Part shown: piece after piece, positions 1-5,110 of the stretch
How positions within the stretch are numbered: the stretch's first letter is position 1
How the letters are laid out: every line of letters begins with the position of its first letter
From: Acetobacteraceae bacterium
Lineage (GTDB): Bacteria > Pseudomonadota > Alphaproteobacteria > Acetobacterales > Acetobacteraceae
Length of the DNA stretch: 6,161 nt
Direction of reading: 5' to 3'
Assembly: GCA_947462945.1 (NCBI GenBank)
Contig: CANHTE010000095.1
Location: forward strand, 1-6,161
Notes under the pieces: model-generated
Databases searched by the model: none
What the model saw: the letters and a program-made list of their open reading frames with translations, nothing else
What the model was told of the DNA's origin: nothing
Program-made: the position numbers and the translations under genes

Positions 1-81
1 CTGACGGCTGGCGCCGAGCTCGCAAACGGAACAAGTCCGTGGCACCGGTGCACCCCGCCCGGTACGCGCGAGAACAACTCT
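1..81 (-). other. Leader region downstream of the cobalamin aptamer (expression platform; target gene off-window)
   Basis: These 81 bases follow the B12 box on the minus strand and should carry the switching part of the riboswitch leader. I see a small hairpin (arms 26-30 and 36-40, five pairs, five-base loop) and two overlapping palindromes, GCACCGGTGC at 42-51 and GGTGCACC at 47-54. No run of Ts follows any of them, so a classical intrinsic terminator is not visible. Switching could instead work by hiding a ribosome binding site, or a terminator could lie further left. No convincing start codon with a Shine-Dalgarno is present, so the controlled gene must begin beyond base 1. Its identity cannot be told from this window. 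Confidence 0.5.
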
Positions 82-373
82 GTGCAGGCCGGTCTCCTGG
101 CTCGCGGGTCAACGCCTGGGTCCGCCTTCTCACTCCCGTCTGGAGCATGATCTGCTGAGGCGGCTTCGCCTGAGCAGTGAATCATTCTCCCGTCTGATGC
201 ATGATCTGCTGAGGCGGCTTCGCCGAAGCAGTGGATCATGCGCCCAACTCTGGGGGCAATGGCATTTGGACCGAGGCTCACCGCCTACAGTTGCGGGGGC
301 AGCCGCGGATTGGCCGGCAAGAGGACCGGCTCGTCACGCATTCCCGTTTCAACCCTCATCGGGTCACCTACAC
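82..373 (-). promoter_or_regulatory. Cobalamin (vitamin B12) riboswitch, enlarged aptamer
   Basis: Read on the minus strand, this region has the conserved elements of the cobalamin aptamer in the right order. GGTTGAAACGGGAA (354-341) is the 5' core. GCGGCTGCCCCCGCAACTGT (306-287) follows, then ATGCCATTG (265-257), GTGAGAAGGC (133-124), and the B12 box AGCCAGGAGACCGGCC near 102-87. P1 can be closed by GTGTAGG (373-367) with CCTGCAC (88-82), seven pairs including one G-U. An internal hairpin GCCGG...CCGGC lies between the first two core blocks. The aptamer is about 292 nt; removing the two 54-bp units at 133-240 leaves about 184 nt, the usual size. Such RNAs bind adenosyl- or methylcobalamin and normally turn off B12 synthesis, uptake or B12-independent isoenzyme genes. 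The target gene lies left of the window. The riboswitch call is firm; the ligand form is not determined. Confidence 0.93.
133..240 (-). repeat. Two tandem 54-bp hairpin units inside the riboswitch
   Basis: Bases 133-186 and 187-240 are head-to-tail copies of one 54-bp unit, matching at 48 of 54 positions. The differences are at 143/197, 144/198, 171/225, 172/226, 180/234 and 186/240. A 26-bp core (145-170 = 199-224) is identical. Each copy folds on itself. The right-hand copy has an outer stem GCATGATC/GATCATGC (241-234 with 206-199), then CTGCT/AGCAG, then GGCG/CGCC around AAGC. The left-hand copy has a five-pair outer stem and a five-pair AGGCG/CGCCT inner stem. On the minus strand each unit runs from near CACTG to CAGACGGGAG. 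The pair sits between the riboswitch segments ATGCCATTG and GTGAGAAGGC, that is, within one peripheral arm. It could be a duplicated RNA arm or a REP-like palindromic insertion. Confidence 0.9.
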
Positions 374-381
374 ATGCAAAT

Positions 382-411
382 ATCCTAGACCGCTTCAGAC
401 GATCCAGCCAA
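382..411 (-). promoter_or_regulatory. Putative sigma70-type promoter for the riboswitch transcript
   Basis: On the minus strand TTGGCT (411-406) and TAGGAT (387-382) are separated by 18 bases and resemble -35 and -10 hexamers. Counting about seven bases on from the -10 places the start near base 374, right where the P1 helix begins at 373. That agreement is the main support, since the hexamers are imperfect. The -35 lies inside the last codons of exoD and the -10 just past its stop codon. The riboswitch transcript can therefore start on its own even though no terminator is visible after exoD. Confidence 0.5.
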
Positions 412-1033
412 GAGCCTGAATGCCCACCCATATCAATGCGCCGATGACGAAGGTGGCAAAGAGGCACCCCAACAGCGTCAGGGCCGCACCAATACCAATG
501 ACGCGGTTATCAGCTTCAACCACGCCCAGCGACATGATGATGGTGCCGAAGGCGGGCGGACCATTGGTGCCGGGGCCGGGCAGAATGAGCATGATGGCCG
601 AATAGACGGTGAGCCACCCCACCATCTTGTCACCGATCGGACCCGTGAAGAAACCCGGGCGCGGCTTTACGAATTTCTCGATCCGCTTGATCCAGGATGA
701 GCCAGAGGCGCCGGAGAGGCGCAGCAGATCCTCACGCTTGATGGATTGGCGGGCGATGAAGCGCGGCAGCTTGGGCACGCGCCGCCCCATGCCCATCTGG
801 GCGCCCAGGATCAGCATTGGAATGCCAAAGACGGAGGCCATCCCGGGCAGCAGCGAAGGCAGGCAAAGCAGCAGGATCAACAGGCCGAAGGCACGGTCCC
901 CGAAAGCCTCGGCCATCTCGCCCAGGGTAATGCGCGCGCCAGGAAATTGCGCCGCCACTTCAGTGACAATTCGCGAAATCGGCGCGAGATGCTCATCACG
1001 GTGATCAGATGCGGGTTGCGCCGTTCCGTCCAA
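395..1033 (-). CDS. exoD: ExoD-family exopolysaccharide synthesis membrane protein
   Basis: The 212-residue protein matches the ExoD family: an N-terminal segment ISRIVTEVAAQFPGARITLGEM (residues 19-40), then AFGDRAFGLLILLLCLPSLLPG, and the conserved QMGMGRRVPKLPRF block (79-92) followed by RQSIKRED. Hydrophobic stretches at about 46-78, 139-155 and 180-208 suggest an inner-membrane protein. Family members are linked to exopolysaccharide production in rhizobia, but their biochemical role is unclear. Full length is typical of the family. The start is TTG at 1033-1031, chosen because AAGGA (1045-1041) sits seven bases upstream and no better in-frame start exists before the upstream TAA. The gene stands alone: a terminator precedes it at 1116-1158 and the riboswitch promoter overlaps its end. 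No extracellular polysaccharide genes are in view, so its local role is not indicated by neighbours. Confidence 0.85.
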   Translation of the reverse strand: MDGTAQPASDHRDEHLAPISRIVTEVAAQFPGARITLGEMAEAFGDRAFGLLILLLCLPSLLPGMASVFGIPMLILGAQMGMGRRVPKLPRFIARQSIKREDLLRLSGASGSSWIKRIEKFVKPRPGFFTGPIGDKMVGWLTVYSAIMLILPGPGTNGPPAFGTIIMSLGVVEADNRVIGIGAALTLLGCLFATFVIGALIWVGIQALGWIV

Positions 1034-4313: not shown

Positions 4314-5012
4314 TCAAACCGGACCGCGCTGCCACTCCCAGTAAAGTGGCTTGCGGCCTGCCGCGAAGGCCTTGGCCTCATACCGCGTGGGCGGCCAGCC
4401 CGCGGGGCGTTCCGTGGCTGGCGGCGCCCCGCTGAAGATGGACTGGCCGGCGAAAACCTCCGTCACCCAGGCCTGGTAGGTCGGGTCGTCGCTGGCCACG
4501 CGCCAGAAACCGCCGGGCTTCAGCGCGCGTGCCACGATGGGGATCATCTCGGGATGCACGAAGCGGCGCTTGGCGTGGCGCGTCTTGGGCCAGGGGTCGG
4601 GGAACATGAGAAAGACGCGGTCCAGGCTGGCTTCCGGCAGGGCCAGCAGCAATTCGCGCGCATCCTCGGGCCAAAGGCGCAGCAGCGGCGGCGGGGGCGC
4701 CGTGGCTTCCTGGCCATCGGGGATGATGTCCGTCAGCAGGGAGCAGAGGCCATGCTCATAGACCTCGCTCGCGATGACGGCGATGCGCGGATTGGCGCGC
4801 ATTTGCGCCAGCGTGTGCTCCCCCCCGCCAAAGCCCACTTCCAGCCAAAGTCCATCCGCACCGGCTGCGAAGCCGAGATCGGTGAAACGAAGGCGCGGCA
4901 GGGCGTCGCTCAGCAGGCGTTCCTGGCGCGGGCGCAGCTTCTTGCCCCGTCTGCGGCCATAGAGCCGATGCGGAATGCCTTCGGGCCAGTCTTCGTCCGT
5001 ATCCTCGTTCAT
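4314..5012 (-). CDS. trmB: tRNA (guanine-N7-)-methyltransferase TrmB
   Basis: TrmB methylates N7 of G46 in the variable loop of tRNAs, using S-adenosylmethionine, as a cytosolic Rossmann-fold enzyme. From the ATG at 5012 it is 232 residues. WLEVGFGGGEHTL (56-68) is the SAM-binding glycine loop and SEVYEHG (82-88) the following strand. WPEDARELL (114-122) is the second nucleotide-binding region. FPDPWPKTRHAKRRFV (137-152) is the family's hallmark catalytic and tRNA-binding block. PPTRYEAKA (207-215) is the C-terminal Thr/Glu motif. The basic N-terminus RRRGKKLRP is usual in alphaproteobacterial homologues. A GTG at 5021 would add three residues; neither start has a strong Shine-Dalgarno and I prefer ATG. 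It lies downstream of metK, whose product makes its methyl donor, but a strong terminator stands between them. It may head the four-gene run ending at the crotonase. Confidence 0.93.
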   Translation of the reverse strand: MNEDTDEDWPEGIPHRLYGRRRGKKLRPRQERLLSDALPRLRFTDLGFAAGADGLWLEVGFGGGEHTLAQMRANPRIAVIASEVYEHGLCSLLTDIIPDGQEATAPPPPLLRLWPEDARELLLALPEASLDRVFLMFPDPWPKTRHAKRRFVHPEMIPIVARALKPGGFWRVASDDPTYQAWVTEVFAGQSIFSGAPPATERPAGWPPTRYEAKAFAAGRKPLYWEWQRGPV

Positions 5013-5054: not shown

Positions 5055-5110
5055 GTTCAAGGGGCGGCGCCCCTTGCTGGCTTCGTGCGTTCAAGGGGCG
5101 GCGCCCCTTG
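5055..5110. repeat. Two identical 22-bp GC-rich palindromic repeats
   Basis: Bases 5055-5076 and 5089-5110 are the same 22 bases, repeated directly with a 34-base period. Each contains the 19-base perfect palindrome CAAGGGGCGGCGCCCCTTG (nine-base arms around one G). Identity over all 22 bases, including the non-palindromic GTT at the left edge, suggests copies of a family of intergenic elements, as REP sequences are, rather than chance. Neither copy is followed by a T-run. They fill the spacer between the metK terminator and the palindrome before trmB. I see no other copy in the window. Confidence 0.75.

Follow-up and report, generated by a model that had tools for sequence, protein, structure and literature searches.

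One arm of a complete cobalamin riboswitch is enlarged by two tandem copies of a hairpin repeat in the window, the whole 6,161-nucleotide stretch of Acetobacteraceae DNA (contig CANHTE010000095.1), from a bacterium of the Roseococcus group, analysed here. The repeat is dispersed through related genomes, and its presence inside a riboswitch aptamer is well supported. Each unit of the enlargement consists of a 47-nt hairpin repeat, which is one inverted repeat, and 7 bp of flank. The REP-like repeat very probably arrived in the arm and then, likely, duplicated in place together with the 7 bp flank, with the aptamer predicted to work around it. This would provide a concrete route for the growth of riboswitch accessory domains, in which a genomic hairpin repeat enters a tolerant loop and multiplies there, and the natural leaders with 0, 1 and 2 copies form a ready series for measuring the effect of added stems.

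The enlarged riboswitch arm

The features of the riboswitch region are listed in Table 1. The earlier note, made from the sequence alone, had placed two near-identical 54-bp units within one arm of the riboswitch, and both the units and their location inside the aptamer are confirmed. The units are direct copies (133-186 and 187-240) that abut and are 89% identical, and they are spanned by the RF00174 match, which runs from 386 to 70 on the minus strand and covers the model at full length with a score far above the curated cut-off (gathering threshold 31.5 bits). The hairpin enclosed by GCCA..G and GAGAAGGC comprises 117 nt in the window versus 5 in the RF00174 model. Besides the riboswitch, no Rfam family is reported over the repeat in the window. 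On the RNA strand, CAGACGGGAG comes after each of the two units. Each copy leads into CAGACGG and then into GAG, the starting letters of copy 2, and one-copy relatives have CAGACCGG where the window has CAGACGG after copy 2. Judged by its position, the arm would belong to the P6 accessory region, which a figure legend in PMC9600662 presents as highly variable.

Table 1. Features of the riboswitch region of the window.
Feature	Position	Strand	Evidence and remarks
Cobalamin riboswitch aptamer, RF00174, complete (model 1-189)	70..386	-	94.5 bits, E 2.9e-23; 105/105 invariant columns kept
Enlarged arm, GCCATTG to GAGAAGGC	124..263	-	Putative P6 accessory region, by position
Repeat copy 1 (5' copy on RNA), 47-nt hairpin	197..243	-	Model R1, 62.6 bits, E 3.6e-17
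Repeat copy 2 (3' copy on RNA), 47-nt hairpin	143..189	-	Model R1, 69.2 bits, E 2.8e-19
Linker CAGACGG between the copies	190..196	-	Sequence; unit length 54 = 47 + 7
Second CAGACGG, after copy 2, then GAG at 135-133	136..142	-	Sequence; likely flank duplicated with the repeat
Upstream gene, ExoD family	395..1033	-	ORF; PF06055, 138.3 bits

The stop codon of exoD is separated from the start of the riboswitch match by 8 nt. The contig stops short of the gene downstream of the riboswitch; in relatives with the same arrangement this position is occupied by a TonB-dependent receptor gene, the product of which has its best NCBIfam match in TonB-B12, at 250.7 bits and below the model cut-off of 599.7. 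A match to RT-11 at 2579-2447 is below threshold (20.3 versus 143.5 bits) and was disregarded. Intergenic DNA of the window also contains two occurrences of another near-perfect palindrome, CAAGGGGCGGCGCCCCTTG, at 5058-5076 and 5092-5110, with 0 expected by chance (200 shuffles).

Copy number is variable among relatives, at 0, 1 or 2, as had been proposed, with the two-copy state resting on the window's genome, a metagenome-type assembly that is 57% complete. Two further loci of the genus, L063 and L129, carry one copy each in the same arm (arm A) and in the same orientation as in the window, and 14 genus relatives have none. The 14 zero-copy relatives have an arm interior of 14-30 nt; in two other relatives it reaches 70 and 72 nt, and in the window 125 nt. 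In all, 3 of 44 cobalamin riboswitches of the genus contain the repeat, all three at the exoD locus. Extra arm sequence of other kinds is found in two riboswitches: the riboswitch of L018 (genome G020) carries approximately 48 nt of it, and that of L072 carries it in a second arm (4840-4895). The repeat model leaves the extra sequence of both riboswitches unmatched (loci searched, L212 and L072).

A third, older and degenerate module had been suggested at 261-241. In the alignment with the one-copy relatives, this stretch corresponds to the native 5' side of their arm, and a search of L043, the locus that holds positions 1-1886 of the window, with the repeat model returns the two copies and nothing more except a weak hit on the opposite strand of one of them. 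The suggestion was rejected on these grounds.

Retention of the aptamer core

The core elements of the aptamer were said to be retained, and they are: the columns that are invariant in the 14 zero-copy relatives are kept at 105/105 in the window, 104/105 in genome G005 and 105/105 in genome G015. When four close zero-copy rows were held out in turn as a control, 105/106 columns were kept once and 105/105 three times.

In the predicted folding of the whole RNA each unit forms its own hairpin, also as had been claimed, with mean probabilities of 0.81 and 0.88 for the 16 pairs of each. The predicted closing helix and first hairpin have nearly equal probabilities with 0, 1 or 2 units, in a comparison of core pairing in which one probe fell on an unintended helix. 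The Rfam helix GGCGG/CCCGC is improbable by free-energy folding (≤0.29, and ≤0.32 with both units removed), so the core fold rests on conservation and not on folding. The riboswitch as a whole folds only modestly better than shuffled sequences (z -1.76; 4 of 100 shuffles as good). A putative working aptamer core is supported by conservation rather than by folding prediction, and the expectation is that the aptamer folds and functions around the inserted hairpins.

A dispersed repeat of the Acetobacteraceae

The repeat model, R1, was built from 28 units and has 47 positions and 16 pairs. Elsewhere in the window's own genome the repeat forms an array of 3.2 units of 55 bp on contig C21 and a single hairpin on contig C411. 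R1 matches all 21 genus genomes, with 1 to at least 150 matches in each and at least 25 in 13 of them; the incomplete genome of the window has 25. In the family, 133 of 297 sampled genomes and 49 of 91 genera have matches. A class-wide sample yielded matches in only 18 of 337 genomes. Besides the window's own, these are 17 genomes, of which 13 have a single match and none a match of more than 45.2 bits. This scarcity in the class versus the frequency in the family indicates that the repeat is concentrated in the Acetobacteraceae. Blastn searches with the two units returned no match at E 0.01 in plasmid and phage collections, leaving spread on plasmids or phages without support. In the open-licence PMC literature, no description of the 47-nt repeat was found and no REP-like repeat inside a riboswitch aptamer was recognised.

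The stem of R1 covaries, with two-sided changes in 7 pairs and 51 cells versus shuffled means of 4.9 and 15.7, counts in which tandem copies are not independent of each other. Further pair types, 11 versus 12.7, are not above the shuffles. The 1040 stem cells of 65 distinct ungapped elements include 987 that are Watson-Crick, 10 that are G-T and 20 that are A-C as read on the riboswitch strand. Selection on the RNA of this strand was considered and dropped, the G-T and A-C cells giving no sign of it.

Arrays of the repeat are widespread. Units are 52-59 bp long in 25 of the 26 arrays listed, and the remaining one, from the other riboswitch clade, is an 85-bp composite. The linkers differ from array to array and are nearly identical inside each array, and by eye they are often similar to the sequence that borders the first or the last copy. 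In arrays with matching flanks the number of copies varies by genome, with 5 in G004 versus 2 in G003 (L173, L180) at one and 4 in G011, 3 in G003 and 3 in G004 (L174, L175, L181) at a second. Close pairs of elements are head-to-tail in 81 of 81 cases, in a set partly chosen for arrays. Two long and nearly perfect tandem arrays were seen, one of 11 copies of 52 bp (L114:1120-1684) and one of 12 copies of 54 bp (L176; G041:C2:80061-80700). The earlier note had called tandem duplication inside a riboswitch domain unusual; tandem copies of the repeat are present at many other loci, and it is the address inside a riboswitch that is unusual.

A simple ORF finder placed 24 of 57 distinct element sites, some of them orthologous, between unidirectional genes, 19 between convergent and 3 between divergent genes, the remaining sites lying inside an ORF (3) or at an edge (8). 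By hand count, a gene ends within 20 nt of the element at 35 of the 57 sites. Single-copy repeats (32 sites; L002, L138-L192) have a loose flank consensus, TTTG.TGA before the 47 nt and TAG after, often preceded by a partial GGATCA.G.TC.AGCC; given this consensus, more than these 47 nt may be mobile. A search for an empty site away from the riboswitch, based on one site of G004, gave no clean one: G003 also has the element, G011 differs at this site, and in the other genomes the two flanks mostly match separate places. Nor did inspection by eye reveal, at the riboswitch itself, a clean target-site duplication of the kind expected for a MITE.

Repeat-bearing riboswitches in related genomes

The named loci found through the ExoD protein number 72, and the arm could be read by pattern in 57, the other 15 being left out. 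The repeat lies within the riboswitch in 13 of the 57 readable loci, either in arm A, in one or other orientation, or in arm B. Nine of these loci belong to a clade of metagenome-assembled, mostly 'Roseomonas' genomes, where the repeat is in arm A in the opposite orientation and is joined to a second hairpin; six of the nine were identified by pattern and R1 rather than by Rfam. Seven of the nine have the repeat once and two (L116, L131) have it twice. In the latter pair (L116:4790-4980; L131:4766-4950) the insert, a reversed repeat and a second hairpin (GATGATGA...TCATCATC), is doubled as an 85-86-bp unit, and the riboswitches score just 37 bits with Rfam, the match being displaced into the insert. 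The same clade includes zero-copy loci (L088, L115, L119, L120, L125 and L132). In L086 and L110 the repeat is in the second arm and directly precedes the GAGCCAGG box. Besides the lineage of the window, three lineages therefore have the repeat in this riboswitch, one of them in arm A and two in the second arm. The repeat also occurs near the riboswitch position at two other loci, in the gap preceding the riboswitch in L075 and as three copies after exoD in L091, a locus in which no riboswitch was detected.

In a tree of the ExoD protein, which represents one gene and has unsettled bootstrap values, the sets with a repeat-bearing riboswitch fall in four separate places. Orientation, arm and this one-gene tree together suggest that the insertions were independent across lineages. 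L064 and L069, with 0 copies, nest beside the window among copy-bearing rows, a placement that could reflect loss, repeated gain or an error in the tree. L088 and L132 (labelled Asaia bogorensis) and L066 (Hyphomonadaceae) are found among Roseomonas-type and Rubritepida/Roseococcus rows and are probably mislabelled bins.

Origin of the two units

Insertion of a mobile repeat is the likely source of the first copy, which would have entered loops of the variable P6 accessory region that tolerate it. The 47 bp of the repeat and 7 bp of flank would then have been duplicated in place. In-place duplication is the simplest account because CAGACGG is common to the linker and the flank and GAG is present on both sides. 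The address would fit the habit of the repeat, which tends to sit just behind genes; the gap between exoD and btuB would be such a place, and since this gap is largely filled by the riboswitch, surviving insertions would be found in loops that the aptamer tolerates.

Two readings give the added stems a role. One, which we regard as improbable, is that the btuB-type riboswitch has been a recurrent target of colonisation by the repeat, in two arms and in either orientation, with copy number acting as a tunable add-on to folding or the B12 response. The other, slightly less probable again, is that the extra hairpins are a selected extension tuning folding or ligand response, their number adjusted by selection. 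Points in favour of selection are the retention of the aptamer core and the presence of the repeat in the riboswitch of four or more separated lineages, but close relatives lack the repeat (14 of 17 genus rows and, in the other clade, 6 of 15), as do all but 3 of the 44 riboswitches of the genus, and predicted core pairing hardly changes with the number of units. Moreover, insertion at this place needs no special cause, because intergenic copies of the repeat are common elsewhere.

The repeat is very unlikely to be a classical REP element mobilised by a Y1 (RAYT) transposase. Its hairpin form, high copy number and intergenic location, mostly between unidirectional or convergent genes, are as described for REPs in excerpts of PMC3733652, and genome G017 has three matches to Y1_Tnp. 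However, all 21 genus genomes have the repeat and only one has Y1_Tnp (1 of the 13 of good quality), and the search for this domain in the 21 genomes identified no mobilising enzyme. The tags of the two REP types are also rare among 120 distinct elements, with GTAG near an end in 7 and CGTC in 3, a count that leaves the variants TGTC and CCTC outside; GGAG was counted 20 times. Least credible is duplication of the riboswitch's own hairpin module inside the aptamer with no mobile repeat involved, as the earlier note had it, for although the units are tandem and CAGACGG is common to them and to the 3' side of the arm, a repeat that matches the unit is spread over many unrelated sites of the genus and family, the 14 genus relatives with the short arm have no repeat, and another lineage has the repeat in the same arm in opposite orientation. 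What stands of that proposal is that the two copies look duplicated; the origin of the unit is a dispersed repeat and not a module of the riboswitch. Arrival of the dispersed repeat followed by duplication in place is the favoured reading.

Relation to known systems

The window resembles RF00174 riboswitches in covering all model positions and keeping the core columns, and differs from those with a variable P6 region in that its extra stems are a dispersed genomic repeat present in 0 to 2 copies among relatives. Short tandem repeats are likewise tolerated in a peripheral part of cyanobacterial RNase P RNA, which is alike in this peripheral tolerance and unlike in the RNA, the repeat and the bacteria concerned.

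Like REP elements, the 47-nt repeat is a short dispersed palindrome of high copy number that is mostly extragenic (3 of 57 sites in an ORF). It is unlike the GTAG and CGTC types in its greater length and in the rarity of their tags. CGTC REPs, according to excerpts of PMC3733652, have no dedicated transposase and are mostly arranged head-to-head, with head-to-tail pairs negligible, whereas the close pairs of the present repeat, in the array-enriched set, are exclusively head-to-tail. The same excerpts report CGTC REPs as missing from the Acetobacteraceae, a family to which the present repeat adds a high-copy REP-like family.

For the pneumococcal trp leader, an excerpt of PMC3049150 describes a BOX repeat between two T-box riboswitches in a leader that appears to be still working. 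As described there, the case is similar in that a dispersed repeat is incorporated in a riboswitch leader, but the BOX repeat is located between two riboswitches and the repeat of the window inside the arm of an aptamer.
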